From Occultella glacieicola (GTDB taxonomy: Bacteria > Actinomycetota > Actinomycetes > Actinomycetales > Beutenbergiaceae): a DNA stretch of 64,000 nt. The number at the start of each line of letters is the position of its first letter. Position 1 is the first letter of the stretch. Made by a program: the position numbers and the translations under genes. The stretch spans positions 248,001 to 312,000 of the forward strand of contig NZ_SMNA01000004.1 in the NCBI RefSeq assembly GCF_004353825.1, given 5' to 3'. Positions 15,270-21,030 of this stretch are shown one piece after another. The notes beneath the pieces are model-generated. The model searched no databases, was not told where the DNA came from, and saw nothing but the letters and a program-made list of their open reading frames with translations.

Positions 15270-18032
15270 TCAGAACGGTGGTGGTTCGTCCGGGTCAGGG
15301 GCGGCGCGATAGGTGGGTCCGGTCCCGCTCGTTCCGGAGCCGGTGTCGGCACCGCCGCGGCTCGTGCTCGTGCTGTCGGTGCTGCTGCTCGTGCTCGTGC
15401 TGTCGGTGCTGCTGCTCGTGCTCGTGCTGTCGGTGCTGCTGCTCGTGCCCGCGCTCGTGCCTGTGCTCGTGCTCGTGCCTGTGCTCGTGCCTGTGCCTGT
15501 GCCTGCCACTGTGCCTGTGCTCGTGCTGGTGCTCGTGCTCGTGCTCGCGCTCGTGGCGTTGGTGCTGGTGCCGCGGGGGTCGGTTGTGCCAGTGCCGCGC
15601 TGCACGGAGGCGCCGCCCGGCTCGGTGGAGCGTGCGAGTTCGGTGATGGTTCCGCTGGGGGTGCGCATGTAGACGTGGCCGGTCGGAGTCCGCCAGAACC
15701 GGTTGCCCTTGGCGTCGATCTCGTCGGTGAAGCCGCCGTGGGTCTTGATCAGGTGGCAGCGTCGGCACTTGGGATCGAGGTTCGCATCGCTGGTGGGTCC
15801 CTCGGGGAACGGAATGCGGTGGTCGAGCTCGGTCATCCGCGCGGTGGCGCCGCACCCGGGCGTGCTGCAGTAGGGCTCGTTCTCCTTGACCCGGTCGGTC
15901 ATGTTCTGAGGTGGGCTGTACCGCGTGGTGCCGTAGTCGACGACGCGATCGGTGATCGGGTCGGTGACCAGCCGCCGCCAGCTACCGCCGGCCGCGAACG
16001 CGCGGGCGACCTCGGCCGGGATCGGGCCAAGGCCCTCGATGTCGGCCGGGGTGTCCCCGCCCATCAGAGTCGAGAGCGGAACGCGGACCAGGATCTGCGC
16101 CCGGCGCCCGCCGAGGACCCCGACCGGCCAGGTTCGCGGGAGGCCGCGGTCGACGGCCGGGTTGAAGACACGCGGGTCGGACCCGGTGTCGGCCCCATCC
16201 CACGACCCTAGGAAACCGCCCGCCGGCGAGGGGCCACCGCCGACCGTCGGAGTGCCAGCGTCCGCCGGCGACGGGCGGAGGTCCGTCGAGACGGTCTCCG
16301 ACGCGGCGTCCGCCTGGCCCTGCGTGCCACTCGACTCAACCGAGCTGGGCCGCGGCACACCCGTGCCGTTGGTGCCGTTGGTGCCGTGGGTGCCCGAGCC
16401 GTTGGCGTCCGAGCCGTCCTGGCGCACGCGGGTCCCGGAGATGGCCGGGGAGGCGCCGGGTTGACTCCCATCGGACCGGGCTGCGGTGGCCGAATCGGAG
16501 GGCGCGGCCGTCGGAGTGGGCGTTGACGAGTGCCCGCCGGGATCGCGTGGATCGCCCGTGGCTTCGCTGGGATCGCCTGTGGCGTCGCCCGTGCCGGCAC
16601 CGGTGCCCGCGACCGTGCCGGCGTCGGGCTCGGGGCCGTCGTCGGTGTGTTCACCGCCGTCACCACGTGCGCCGCAGGTGTGGTGCTCCCGGCCGTCGGC
16701 GCAGGTGCAGGGCGCGACCTGGAGATGGAACGTGAAGCCGGCCAGGTCGGCGACCTTCCCGACGTTGAGACCGTGGGCGATGATGTCGGCGAGCACGTCG
16801 GCCCGCAACTGTTCGAGGGTCCTCAGGTCCCCCGCAGCCTTCGCGGTGGCGGCAGCGCTGTCCAGGAGCAGGTCCATGGCCAGGGCATCGGCCGTCGGCC
16901 AATAGATCGACTGACTGGCCATCCCGTCGGTGTCCACCCGGGCCCTGCCCACGTACCGGCGCGTGCTCGCGATCGCGGCGCGTTGGTTGAACTGTGTCGG
17001 GTCGGCGGCGGCGACGAGCTTGGCAACCTCCCGTGCCACCCGCGACCTCGGCCAGGACGTGGCCTTGGGCAGGATCTCGTCCTGTACCTCGAACGCGGCC
17101 TCGCCGTCCAGGACCGCGACCGCGATCGCGATCACGTCGGCCTTGCCGGCATCGATGAGTCCGGCGGCGAGGGCGTCGCCGGTGGGTGCTGCGATCGTGT
17201 CCAGCAACTGACCGACACGCACGAGCCGGTTCGCCTCGAACTTCGAGCATCCGAGCTTCGGCGTGATCTCGTCGGCAGCCAAGGACTCCCGGAACACGAT
17301 CTGCTTACCGACCGAGCGAGGGCGAGTCATCACCATCGACGCCCGCGACGCCAGTTCCGCAGCCACGTGACGCAGCCCGGCAGCGGCAGCCGCCTCAAGG
17401 CGCTGGTAGCACGCCAACGCGTCGACCAGTTCGAACTCGTCGAAGTCGGTCAGGTCCGAGCGGTCGAGTTCGTCGACCATGAACCCGTCGACCGGTCGCG
17501 CAGCAAGCCTCGTCGGGTCCACCGAGGGCAGTCCGTCCGGGTCCCACGGAGCGGCCGCACGGGATGCTCCGGACGCCGCCGGGACTGGGGCATCCAAGGG
17601 GCGAGCACCGTTGACCATGGATCGGCCCCGACCTCCTCGAGCGCCGTCGACGGTGGCTCCGGACGTGGCGTCGGGCACGCCCGTCTCGCCGTCCTCGGCG
17701 ACGTCGACGGTGGGTACGGAAGCGGCCTCGGGCATGCCCGTCCCGCTGTCCTCGGCGACGTCCATCGTGTCAAGGTCGGGATCGAAGAAGGCCCCTTCAT
17801 CAGGGTCAAGGAACTCCGCGTACCAGTCCTCGAGCGCCATGGATCGTTCGTAGGCCTCGAGGTCGGCAAGGTCCTGCGGGCTCAACGCGGCCCGGGCGGA
17901 CTCGGTCAGCTTGCGATAGTCGATCACCCGCGCCGGCTCCCCAAGCGCATGGTCGAGGGAGGTGCAGTTCGCGCAGCACCCCGACCCCGGCATCGCCGCC
18001 GGGGCGGCCGCCTGACCGCTCGATTCGAACAT
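15270..18032 (-). CDS. DUF222 / HNH endonuclease domain protein with tandem repeats
   Basis: This 920-residue protein has a DUF222 helical domain (about residues 190-440). A Gly/Thr/Asp-rich low-complexity spacer follows, then an HNH nuclease domain with CSTPGC, ELDHRIPF and CRRCHLIKTHGG. The Cys pairs bind structural zinc and the His residues the catalytic metal. Such proteins are multi-copy in actinobacteria and their biological role is not established. A leaderless -10 box (TAGTGT, seven bases upstream) supports the start at 18032; ATG at 18062 is an alternative. The N- and C-terminal regions contain DNA tandem repeats. Confidence 0.88.
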   Translation of the reverse strand: MFESSGQAAAPAAMPGSGCCANCTSLDHALGEPARVIDYRKLTESARAALSPQDLADLEAYERSMALEDWYAEFLDPDEGAFFDPDLDTMDVAEDSGTGMPEAASVPTVDVAEDGETGVPDATSGATVDGARGGRGRSMVNGARPLDAPVPAASGASRAAAPWDPDGLPSVDPTRLAARPVDGFMVDELDRSDLTDFDEFELVDALACYQRLEAAAAAGLRHVAAELASRASMVMTRPRSVGKQIVFRESLAADEITPKLGCSKFEANRLVRVGQLLDTIAAPTGDALAAGLIDAGKADVIAIAVAVLDGEAAFEVQDEILPKATSWPRSRVAREVAKLVAAADPTQFNQRAAIASTRRYVGRARVDTDGMASQSIYWPTADALAMDLLLDSAAATAKAAGDLRTLEQLRADVLADIIAHGLNVGKVADLAGFTFHLQVAPCTCADGREHHTCGARGDGGEHTDDGPEPDAGTVAGTGAGTGDATGDPSEATGDPRDPGGHSSTPTPTAAPSDSATAARSDGSQPGASPAISGTRVRQDGSDANGSGTHGTNGTNGTGVPRPSSVESSGTQGQADAASETVSTDLRPSPADAGTPTVGGGPSPAGGFLGSWDGADTGSDPRVFNPAVDRGLPRTWPVGVLGGRRAQILVRVPLSTLMGGDTPADIEGLGPIPAEVARAFAAGGSWRRLVTDPITDRVVDYGTTRYSPPQNMTDRVKENEPYCSTPGCGATARMTELDHRIPFPEGPTSDANLDPKCRRCHLIKTHGGFTDEIDAKGNRFWRTPTGHVYMRTPSGTITELARSTEPGGASVQRGTGTTDPRGTSTNATSASTSTSTSTSTGTVAGTGTGTSTGTSTSTGTSAGTSSSTDSTSTSSSTDSTSTSSSTDSTSTSRGGADTGSGTSGTGPTYRAAPDPDEPPPF
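15364..15444. repeat. Three perfect 27-bp tandem repeats in the HNH protein C-terminus
   Basis: Units 15364-15390, 15391-15417 and 15418-15444 are identical and encode a nine-residue Ser/Thr/Asp repeat (STDSTSTSS type). A further, less regular Gly/Thr/Ser repeat continues to about 15560. The period is a multiple of three, so copy changes preserve frame. Confidence 0.9.
17646..17759. repeat. Two 57-bp tandem repeats in the HNH protein N-terminus
   Basis: Units 17646-17702 and 17703-17759 are similar but diverged and encode 19-residue repeats of the form VDVAED-xx-TG-x-P. They lie just after the N-terminal segment of the DUF222/HNH gene, and the period is in frame. Confidence 0.8.
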
Positions 18033-18106
18033 GTGTACCACACTACCCGCGCCCGCCGACATTGGGGAGACTGTCCGGCAGGCTGGGGATAATCGGCGAT
18101 GACCCG

Positions 18107-19162
18107 TCAGGGTGACTGCAGCGCCTTGATGATCGTGACGGCCTGGGTGATCGCTGCCGCGGTGCCCGGGTGTTCGACGGCGTCCAACTCCCAGATGGCG
18201 TTCCGGACGCACCGCACCAGGGCGAACGCACGCGCACGGTCGTAGTCGAGTCCGGCGGCGGCGCAGGCAACGTCCAGTCGCAGCTGGAGGTGGGCACGCA
18301 GGTCGTGGGCGCTGCGGGCGGGCTCCCACCGGTCCCACAGCAGTGGCGCGAGGACGAACGCCGGGTCCGCCGCCATCACCTCTGCGTCGATGGCGACCCA
18401 TTCGGCCGGATCGGTCCGACGCAGCACGTTGCCCGCGTGCAGGTCGGTGTGCACGAGTCGGGCGTCGACGTCGGGTTCCGAACCCAGGTCGACGGCGAGG
18501 GCTCGGCCGGCCTCGAGCAGTCGCCTGGGGAAGGTGTGGCCGCGGGCGTCCCGGGTGCGGAGTGCGTCGATGTCCGCCACGAGGGTGCGCAGGTGTTCCG
18601 AGAGTCGCGGTGCCCACGGCGGTGCCGGCCGGTCCAGTCGGGCGGCGATTCGGCCGAGTTCCTCGGCGGCGTCAAGGACGCTCTCGCTGTTCAGGTCGCG
18701 GACCTCCAGGCGTTCGAGCAGCAGCGCCCAGCGGCTCGGATCCGCGGCGAGGAGGCGGACGGCGCCGTCGCCGTCCCAGGTGCGCAGCGCGAGCCTCTCG
18801 GTGCGGCCCTCGGCGTGCGGCCAGACCAGTTTCAGCACGGCGGGTGTACCGTCCGTGCGCCGGACCGGTAGGACGAGCGCGGACGAGCCGTGCCACGCCG
18901 TGCCGGCCGGCGATGTCGCAGGTGTCGGGTCGGTCGGGCCCGTCGGGTCTACCGGATCTGCCGGCACTCTCGGGCGCGCCGAGCCTGTCGGCCCGGTGGG
19001 GTCTGGTGGACCGTCGCGGCGCAGCCGCCAGTGTCCGAGCACCTCTGGGACGAGGCGAGGGAGGGTGGCGAGCCAGGTGGCACCGTCGGGCAGGCCGGGG
19101 TCGGCGACGTGCCGGGTGACGGACTCACGCAGGCCGTCCGGAATCAGGTCGGGATCTCTCAC
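18107..19162 (-). CDS. Aminoglycoside/hydroxyurea phosphotransferase-like kinase
   Basis: This 351-residue kinase-fold protein has the catalytic loop VHTDLHAGNVL (about residue 235) and the metal-binding loop AIDAEVMAADPAF. This resembles the APH(6)/hydroxyurea phosphotransferase group. A Pro-Thr-Gly/Asp-rich insertion lies around residues 50-90, before the beta-strand lysine VLKLVWP. The GTG start overlaps the stop of a micro-ORF (GTGA at 19159-19162). Downstream of a MarR-MFS pair, a resistance role is plausible, but the substrate is unknown. Confidence 0.85.
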   Translation of the reverse strand: MRDPDLIPDGLRESVTRHVADPGLPDGATWLATLPRLVPEVLGHWRLRRDGPPDPTGPTGSARPRVPADPVDPTGPTDPTPATSPAGTAWHGSSALVLPVRRTDGTPAVLKLVWPHAEGRTERLALRTWDGDGAVRLLAADPSRWALLLERLEVRDLNSESVLDAAEELGRIAARLDRPAPPWAPRLSEHLRTLVADIDALRTRDARGHTFPRRLLEAGRALAVDLGSEPDVDARLVHTDLHAGNVLRRTDPAEWVAIDAEVMAADPAFVLAPLLWDRWEPARSAHDLRAHLQLRLDVACAAAGLDYDRARAFALVRCVRNAIWELDAVEHPGTAAAITQAVTIIKALQSP

Positions 19163-19215
19163 CGGGCCTCGGTCTCCTCACGCGGGTCGTCCGGGATCAG
19201 GTCGGGGTCGCTCAC
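19159..19215 (-). CDS. Micro-ORF b (18 residues), duplicated coupling cassette
   Basis: GTG start at 19215, TGA at 19159-19161. The predicted peptide is MSDPDLIPDDPREETEAR, identical to micro-ORF a. It overlaps the preceding micro-ORF and the following kinase gene by GTGA at each end. Its first ten residues resemble the kinase N-terminus (MRDPDLIPDG) and its last residues resemble the end of the MFS protein (EVEAR). It is probably a by-product of tandem duplication that keeps ribosomes flowing; expression is not proven. Confidence 0.5.
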   Translation of the reverse strand: MSDPDLIPDDPREETEAR

Positions 19216-19268
19216 CGGGCCTCGGTCTCCTCACGCGGGTCGTCCGGGATCAGGTCGGGGTCGCTCAC
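19212..19268 (-). CDS. Micro-ORF a (18 residues), duplicated coupling cassette
   Basis: GTG start at 19268, TGA at 19212-19214, identical in sequence to micro-ORF b. The GTG overlaps the TGA of the MFS gene (19265-19268). Together MFS, micro-a, micro-b and kinase form a chain of three consecutive GTGA overlaps. Whether a peptide accumulates is unknown. Confidence 0.5.
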   Translation of the reverse strand: MSDPDLIPDDPREETEAR

Positions 19269-20524
19269 CGGGCCTCCACCTCTTCGGGCAGCGTGGCCGG
19301 CTCGATCGTGAACGAGCGCAGCGGCCTATTCGTCGCGGCGATCAGGCCGACCAGGGCGGCGCAGGCCAGGCCGCCGGAGATGAGCGCGACCGGGGCCGAG
19401 GTGAGGCCCGCGACGATACCCGCCCGGAAGTTGCCGACCTCGGGCCCACCCACGCCGACGATGTGGTCGACGGCCGAGACGCGGCCGCGGTGCGAGTCCG
19501 GCGTCGCCAGTTGGACCATGGCGCCGCGGGTCACCACCGAGACGGTGTCCGCCGCGCCCGCCACCACGAGGGCCGCGAACACCAGCCACAGCGGCTGGGC
19601 GAACCCGACCACCGCGAGCGCGACGCCCCAGGTCGCAGCCGCGCAGAGTTGGATCAGGCCGGCGCGCCGGGCGCGGGTCACCGTGCCCGAGAGCAGGCCG
19701 GCCCCGATCCCGCCGACCGCGATCGCGGACAGGAACAGGCCGAGGGTCTGCGGGTTGCCCCCGAAGCGCTCCTCGTTGATGAGCGGGAACAGCGCGACCG
19801 GCATGGCGAGCAGCGTCGCGGCGAGGTCGGTGGCGAACGACCCCCAGAGCGCGGGCCGGGTGCGGATGAACCGCAGCCCGTCGATGCTCTGCCGCAGGCC
19901 GGCGCGCGCGACGGTGCCGAGCGGCGGCATGGCCGGAAGCCGGATCACGGCGACCAGGGACGCGCACCCGGCGACGGCCTGCACGAGATAGGTCGGAGCG
20001 AGCCCCCACCGGGCCAGGACCAGGCCGGCCAGTGCCGGTCCGACGAGCATCGACGCCTGGAACGCGAGGGACTGCAGCGCGAGACCGGCGCCGACCTGGT
20101 CCGCGGGCAGGAGCCGGACCGGGAACGTGCGCCGGGCGGGGGAGCCGAGGGCGTTGAACGTCGACGCCAGTCCGACCAGCACGAACAGCACCGAGATCGA
20201 GTCCAGCCGGAGGAAGGCCTGGGCGCTCAGTCCGACGGCGACGAGCACCTGGCCGAGGGTGGTCAGGCGGACCAGGGTCCGGCGGTCCATGGCGTCCGCC
20301 AGGGAGCCTCCGATCATCCCGAACACGAGTTGCGGGACCGCGTTCACCAGACCGATCGCGCCGGTCCAGACCGGGCTGTGGGTCAGCTCCCAGACCTGCA
20401 GCAGCACGGCGACCGTCGCGAACTGGTATCCGAACGTGCCGAGCGAGGACCCGATCCACAGTTCTCTGAACGCGCGGCTGGAGCGCAGCGGCCGGATGTC
20501 GACGAGGCGGTCGGCGAGGCTCAC
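19265..20524 (-). CDS. MFS exporter (EntS/MFS_3-like)
   Basis: This 419-residue transporter has about 12 hydrophobic helices. Conserved elements include the loop-2/3 motif GGSLADAMDRRTLVRLTTLGQ and the helix-4/5 region. The GTG start at 20524 overlaps the MarR stop (20521-20524, GTGA). It is the second gene of a MarR-controlled operon and likely exports a drug or metabolite. The open frame extends further upstream but there it is only a shadow of marR. Confidence 0.92.
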   Translation of the reverse strand: MSLADRLVDIRPLRSSRAFRELWIGSSLGTFGYQFATVAVLLQVWELTHSPVWTGAIGLVNAVPQLVFGMIGGSLADAMDRRTLVRLTTLGQVLVAVGLSAQAFLRLDSISVLFVLVGLASTFNALGSPARRTFPVRLLPADQVGAGLALQSLAFQASMLVGPALAGLVLARWGLAPTYLVQAVAGCASLVAVIRLPAMPPLGTVARAGLRQSIDGLRFIRTRPALWGSFATDLAATLLAMPVALFPLINEERFGGNPQTLGLFLSAIAVGGIGAGLLSGTVTRARRAGLIQLCAAATWGVALAVVGFAQPLWLVFAALVVAGAADTVSVVTRGAMVQLATPDSHRGRVSAVDHIVGVGGPEVGNFRAGIVAGLTSAPVALISGGLACAALVGLIAATNRPLRSFTIEPATLPEEVEAR

Positions 20525-21030
20525 GGCAGCTCGGGGCGGGCGGTGGAGTCGTCGGGCGCCTGGAGCAGCGCGGCGATCCGCTCGCTGAACGGCCGGGTCG
20601 CCAGTGCGGCCTCGAGGTCGGTCACCACCCGGGTGAGGGGGTACGGGATCTCGGTCTCCAGCTCGGCGACCGCCGCCTCGGTGGCCCGCCACTCGGCCTC
20701 GAGGAACGGCACCAGGCTCCGGCCCCGGGCGGTCAGGATGATCCGCCGGGTGCGGGCGTCGGCGCCCGGCTCGGTGGCGACCAGATCCTCGCGGCGCATG
20801 GCGGCGACCGTCTGACTGATCGCGGAGTGGGTCTTGCCGAGCTCCGTCGCGAGCTCCGTGATCGTCAGCGGACCGGTGTGCGCGAGCCGGATCAGCGGCC
20901 ACGCGAACCGCGGCCGCACCCCCTCGATGCCGCGCTGGCGGTAGAGGTGCTCGATGTCGGCGTCCATGGCCGCCAGGAGCTGGTGCAGCGCGAGCCAGTG
21001 GCTCTCGTGGGTCGGGTCCGACGTTGTCAC
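20521..21030 (-). CDS. MarR-family regulator
   Basis: This 169-residue winged-helix repressor has the recognition region TITELATELGKTHSAISQTVAAMRRE and the wing ATEPGADARTRRIILT. The GTG start follows a -10 box by six bases, which indicates a leaderless transcript. Two AGCGCT arms flank that -10, a likely self-operator. It heads the operon with the MFS exporter and the kinase, a common arrangement for inducible efflux. Confidence 0.92.
   Translation of the reverse strand: MTTSDPTHESHWLALHQLLAAMDADIEHLYRQRGIEGVRPRFAWPLIRLAHTGPLTITELATELGKTHSAISQTVAAMRREDLVATEPGADARTRRIILTARGRSLVPFLEAEWRATEAAVAELETEIPYPLTRVVTDLEAALATRPFSERIAALLQAPDDSTARPELP

Follow-up and report, generated by a model that had tools for sequence, protein, structure and literature searches.

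The question raised by this locus of Occultella glacieicola is how a chain of very short, overlapping open reading frames came to lie between a transporter gene and a kinase gene, and what such a chain would do to the production of the kinase. All positions given below refer to the window, i.e., the whole stretch of 64,000 nucleotides that was analysed. Considering the composition of the chain and the state of the same junction in related genomes, we propose, with a probability of about 0.7, that it is a local tandem duplication of the transporter/kinase junction which preserves coupling, and which would be relayed by reinitiation with a modest effect on the kinase and little harm.

The genes concerned form a presumed coupled operon. 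A marR-like regulator gene comes first (20521..21030, (-); Pfam MarR_2, 30.1 bits, cutoff 27), followed by an MFS transporter gene of 419 aa with a GTG start (19265..20524, (-); Pfam MFS_3, 133.2 bits with query 20518-19268), whose last letters are CGGTGA, and by an APH(6)/hydroxyurea-kinase-like gene of 351 aa (18107..19162, (-); Pfam APH_6_hur, 94.6 bits, cutoff 27). Against the NCBIfam APH_6 equivalog the kinase reaches 99 bits, under the cutoff of 325, and it is therefore assigned to the broad Pfam family only. The TGA of marR falls on the GTG of the MFS gene in a 4-nt GTGA overlap (20521-20524, (-)), which is also present in the three relatives G001, G002 and G003 (3/3). The C-terminus of MarR differs in sequence among the genomes sharing this overlap. 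Further downstream, the window carries a DUF222/HNH-endonuclease-like frame (15270-18617, (-)), which holds a 57-bp repeat in 2.4 copies (17627-17762) and a 27-bp repeat (15360-15478) that codes for a Ser/Thr-rich tail.

Between the MFS and kinase genes lies a 53-bp tandem array of 2.9 copies (19124..19276, (-); Tandem Repeats Finder, 95% matches, score 271). The partial third copy counted in this figure coincides with the opening 39 nt of the kinase gene (19162-19124). The first-pass annotation had described two identical micro-ORFs in this repeat, at 19268-19212 and 19215-19159, and all of these coordinates hold. Putative micro-ORF a (repeat unit 1; 19212..19268, (-)) comprises 18 codons and a stop (57 nt), and putative micro-ORF b (repeat unit 2; 19159..19215, (-); 57 nt) is letter-identical to it, so that both read V(M)SDPDLIPDDPREETEAR followed by a stop. 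They are joined to each other and to their neighbours by GTGA overlaps at junction 1 (MFS/micro-ORF a, 19265..19268, (-)), junction 2 (micro-ORF a/b, 19212..19215, (-)) and junction 3 (micro-ORF b/kinase, 19159..19162, (-)). Together with the marR/MFS overlap, the sequence thus contains four successive 4-nt GTGA overlaps, and the stop/start NTGA overlap used as a criterion for translationally coupled, co-directed genes is found throughout the locus. The source genome is a draft of 23 contigs, and the copy number of the unit may therefore be miscounted.

The make-up of the unit points to its origin. Its first 39 nt are identical to the head of the neighbouring kinase gene at 34 of 39 positions (5/39 differ), its last 12 nt equal the MFS end exactly, and its last 21 nt differ from the MFS tail at 4/21 positions in a gap-free alignment, a figure that depends on where the breakpoint is placed. 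The earlier suggestion that the junction itself had been repeated is thereby supported, the unit being a kinase head joined to an MFS tail. In total, source and unit differ at 9/60 sites (5/39 in the head, 4/21 in the tail), whereas the two units differ from each other at 0/53 (Fisher p 0.003), with a 95% upper bound of 5.5% on their divergence. Since the units are identical, yet both have diverged from their source, the array probably arose in two steps, a first, older duplication being followed by a second, younger one; alternatively, the units may have been made identical by later homogenisation.

The unit and the adjacent kinase gene share a GTG start and a GAC ninth codon, where the three relatives have ATG and CCC, which argues that the unit was copied on this branch. 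Copying on the branch of this genome is the most likely history, and the statement that the unit was gained here rests on its composition from parts of the junction and on its closest match being the head of its own kinase gene; beyond the genus, the search yielded no outgroup in which the MFS and kinase genes are neighbours. Among the codons on which the relatives are unanimous, two have changed in the unit with an effect on the amino acid (GGN to GAC, CTG to CCG), and one has changed silently in the kinase (ATC to ATT). The changes in the unit suggest that the micro-peptide is free to depart from the kinase sequence, as far as these three sites can tell.

The closest named relatives of the kinase belong to Occultella, namely O. 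aeris and O. gossypii; the genus is presumably a member of the Ruaniaceae. In the other genomes of the genus (3/3), the MFS and kinase genes are adjacent and share a direct ATGA overlap with no unit. The number of units thus varies between species, with two here and none in the other three (one genome per species), as had been anticipated, and the fixed, identical sequence in relatives that had been named as counter-evidence was not encountered, since these relatives lack the units. Fourfold-site differences, calculated without the G003 MFS gene, amount to 0.34-0.39 between the lineage of the window and G001-G003 and to 0.14-0.24 among those three; of the four genomes, that of the window is thus the most distant. 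Beyond the genus, none of the 29 loci with kinase relatives gave an MFS or marR match (tblastn, E <= 1e-5) in the sequence available upstream, which spans about 1.35-3 kb except at L025 and L041, where it is shorter than 100 nt and uninformative.

Some further features of these genes vary in the genus. In G001, the C-terminus of the MFS protein is longer by 16 residues of its own ahead of the same EVEAR end (L006, near 1450-1504), indicating that the MFS tail beside the junction varies. The kinase carries a P/T/G-rich insert of about 33-36 residues (PPDPTGPTG...ATSPA; 18905-19009, (-)), which is missing in the three relatives; their kinases are 315-318 aa long vs 351 aa here. Judging from this comparison, the insert is another expansion confined to this lineage, a short way downstream of the array at the junction. 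The kinase open frames of 781-806 aa in the relatives prompted us to consider an MFS-kinase fusion, which was rejected because, on translation, the MFS gene proved to occupy a different frame and to end at a stop of its own.

The first-pass annotation had also claimed that the length of the duplication recreates the overlap, and this is borne out by simulation. We placed tandem duplications of 12-200 bp across the direct junctions of the three relatives. With lengths of 2 mod 3, the linked chain was re-formed in 6518, 6537 and 6535 of 6552 placements, while lengths of 1 mod 3 re-formed the link in only 2, 18 and 19 of 6489, and lengths of 0 mod 3 in 0/6426 for each relative. Duplications of exactly 53 bp re-formed it in 50/50 cases in each of the three. 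As 53 is 2 mod 3, each tandem copy rebuilds the GTGA overlap. Approximately one in three duplications across a 4-nt overlap heals itself, and the additional overlaps follow of necessity. Of the three GTGA overlaps in a row noted previously, all are present and marR/MFS adds a fourth, but they should not be counted as three coincidences, because one duplication event and a one-in-three frame condition account for them.

The persistence of the array is less informative. Assuming six substitutions, the chance of keeping both frame and overlap without selection is 0.47, so that persistence neither supports nor excludes a function. As a control on the period, 57 arrays (period >= 25, score >= 90) were collected from 1.6 Mb, and in 10 rows at 8 places the period is no multiple of 3 (2 mod 3 in seven rows, 1 mod 3 in three). 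All 8 places were inspected, and the MFS/kinase array alone sits on a coupled junction; the excess of 2 mod 3 in this set therefore gives no support by itself to the frame rule.

We further considered how unusual the arrangement is. A mechanical search of 1.6 Mb from this and related genomes (68-72% GC) returned 51 NTGA-linked micro-ORF chains between gene-like frames, 16 of them with at least two micro-ORFs, including the MFS/kinase chain. With 16 such cases, a chain alone is not striking, and it is the exact tandem repeat that stands out. A survey for junction duplications covered 2.8 Mb of this and related genomes, with 3725 gene-like ends and 459 direct 4-nt junctions. Similar 24-mers within 600 nt occurred at 15 other gene ends (20 rows, 2 from this locus and 18 from elsewhere). 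All 15 places were tested for NTGA in the copies and for the frame opened, and six were also checked in translation; at none of them does a copy with the needed lag (2 mod 3) open a frame of at least 100 codons. Within the 2.8-Mb sample, the survey thus detected no duplicated coupled junction other than the MFS/kinase site. Because the locus was chosen beforehand, the survey describes rarity and gives no rate.

Two near misses were recorded in the survey. In G018, a long frame carries at its 3' end a 17-bp ATGA tandem repeat (L120 3310; C1 about 503310, +), which has the right period and chained six-residue micro-ORFs, with no gene after it on that strand. A place in G003 has a lag of 294, is in frame and lies inside the next open frame.

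Searches with the repeat itself gave a similar picture. The 53-bp unit occurs at one locus only in its own genome. A 122-nt array query matched 42 of 297 genomes of the order at E <= 0.001, more than the E-values alone predict, and these matches include the orthologous junctions in G001 (C17) and G002 (C5). No other full unit was found in the 297 genomes; the remaining matches are scattered pieces of 21-66 nt (E 4e-7 to 1e-3), which we take as composition-driven. Seven other matched loci (within L190-L197) were examined, and none has a 53-bp array.

Putative signals for initiation are present at each junction of the array. A GGAGG-type SD-like stretch lies just upstream of junction 1, with an anti-SD duplex of -10.8 kcal/mol, and the duplexes at junctions 2 and 3 are -9.3 kcal/mol each. 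These values fall within the best 5-10% of 179 MFS 20-mers, for which the median is -3.4 and the best decile -8.4 kcal/mol. At the MFS/kinase junction of the relatives, the duplex is -11.6 kcal/mol in G001 and -2.5 kcal/mol in both G002 and G003; as the latter two are nearly without an SD, the SD at this junction is not conserved. A crude scan of 18900-19500, confined to the sigma-70 type and leaving other promoter types outside it, detected no promoter or terminator-like site. The predicted fold of the region is nothing unusual, with 172 of 200 shuffles at least as good (z +1.08). An RNA element was considered and rejected on this fold and on the Rfam matches at E <= 1, which are two snoRNA matches on the other strand (E 0.58 and 0.68), far below gathering scores.

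Based on these observations, we propose a theoretical scheme for the array. With a copied length of 2 mod 3, the frame that opens at the copied kinase start continues through the copied MFS tail, read as in the MFS gene, and ends exactly on the next GTGA. Ribosomes ending the MFS gene would then be handed by termination-reinitiation to micro-ORF a, next to micro-ORF b and finally to the kinase. Pairs overlapping by -4 nt through ATGA or GTGA are described in PMC6728339 as translated by termination-reinitiation, with yields that differ between pairs, and one E. coli pair, bioBF, seemed uncoupled there; an overlap does not, for this reason, prove coupling. An upstream SD raises reinitiation according to PMC2268962. 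Kinase output would be kept or somewhat lowered, being multiplied by the reinitiation yield for each added junction where de novo initiation plays no part. Under pure coupling with a yield r per junction, it would equal r squared of the level without units, which as a matter of arithmetic only is 0.64 at r = 0.8 and 0.25 at r = 0.5. The loss would be smaller if ribosomes also started de novo at the SD. The array would persist for doing little harm, not for selected peptides or a selected copy number, and such a near-neutral, coupling-preserving duplication is no worse a fit to the evidence than a device for tuning.

Other explanations give the array a function of its own. It might be a contingency device in which the 53-bp repeats change in number, by slippage or by unequal crossing-over, the level of the kinase shifts in steps and variants are selected. 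Identical tandem units are, from general knowledge, of the form expected to change in number readily, the link is preserved when such a junction acquires a 53-bp unit, and the unit number does differ between species (2 vs 0); the units number only two, however, and the array is missing from 3/3 relatives, which makes this explanation improbable. A sensor, in which drug-stalled ribosomes on the micro-ORFs would control the resistance-type kinase in the manner of a leader peptide, would agree with a kinase of an antibiotic-kinase family behind a marR-MFS pair and with short ORFs directly upstream, the right place for such control. Against it stand a fold that does not surpass that of shuffled sequence (z +1.08), Rfam matches (two at E <= 1) that stay far below gathering scores, the lack of the array in 3/3 relatives with the same operon, and the change of the unit's amino acids relative to the source, so that a sensor seems very unlikely.

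The architecture is also like that of MIRUs, in which small ORFs are coupled by -4 nt overlaps (PMC12548453), and a mobile element of this type could have been inserted at the overlap. This reading conflicts with a unit sequence that derives from the local junction, with the single locus in its own genome, with the lack of another full unit in the 297 genomes of the order and with the seven other examined loci without a 53-bp array, and we hold it to be extremely unlikely. A draft of 23 contigs and a short tandem repeat are grounds to suspect an artefact of assembly. Short-read assembly nevertheless tends, from general knowledge, to collapse such repeats and not to invent them; the third copy is diverged, both flanking genes are intact, and the 5/39 difference between unit and kinase head cannot arise by misjoining identical reads, which leaves an artefact with very little probability. 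A bolder extension of the frame rule would make any 2 mod 3 duplication across a 4-nt overlap the source of a linked micro-ORF, and would turn coupled junctions into self-copying expression dials that give rise to MIRU-like arrays on the spot, with no need for a mobile element. Each unit gained or lost would then change the level of the downstream protein, here the resistance-type kinase, by the same factor; we consider this unlikely.

The coupling-preserving local duplication that we prefer has consequences beyond this operon. The array shows a micro-ORF chain arising from the junction itself, with the source sequences still alongside. If the number of units scales output, the locus would provide a clean natural assay of the reinitiation yield per junction; if it does not, it would be an example of operons tolerating duplications. 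Among the matches listed for the literature on coupling, junction duplication and MIRUs (titles and abstract openings, most subscription journals lying outside), there is no description of a local duplication of a coupled junction.

Among coupled genes in general, the marR/MFS pair and the MFS/kinase pair, direct in the relatives, resemble the usual -4 nt pairs as these are described in PMC6728339; unlike such pairs, the MFS/kinase junction here has two extra junctions in series, derived from duplication. E. coli iraD is preceded by a translationally coupled short ORF (PMC5574718), and, as in the present case, the stop of that ORF overlaps the start of the controlled gene. The iraD ORF lies in a leader and serves as an entry point under the control of CsrA, whereas the micro-ORFs studied here are intra-operon and repeated.

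The closest known system is the senX3-regX3 MIRU array of the Mycobacterium tuberculosis complex, to which the MFS/kinase array is likened by architecture and unit length, not by unit sequence. MIRUs are described as apparently mobile, repetitive units with an ORF that comes to be coupled through -4 nt overlaps (PMC12548453), and the senX3-regX3 intergenic array consists of three 77-bp units in one strain vs two 77-bp units and one 53-bp unit in another (PMC4213456); the two sources disagree on how widely MIRUs occur in mycobacteria. Both arrays are tandem units between two genes, and the joining of a small ORF to the flanking genes by -4 nt overlaps is likewise found in the sequence here. Both quoted MIRU lengths, 77 and 53, are 2 mod 3, as the frame rule demands, so that one simple rule on length also fits the mycobacterial units. 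Promoter activity has been reported for the senX3-regX3 region (PMC4213456), unlike the MFS/kinase array, where the crude sigma-70 scan found none. The MFS/kinase unit also differs from a MIRU in not being dispersed, with one locus in its own genome, and in not being outside sequence, since it consists of kinase head and MFS tail. For these reasons the MFS/kinase array is no MIRU, though it is built alike, and it looks like a tidy, perhaps nearly neutral, local counterpart of what has been described in mycobacteria.
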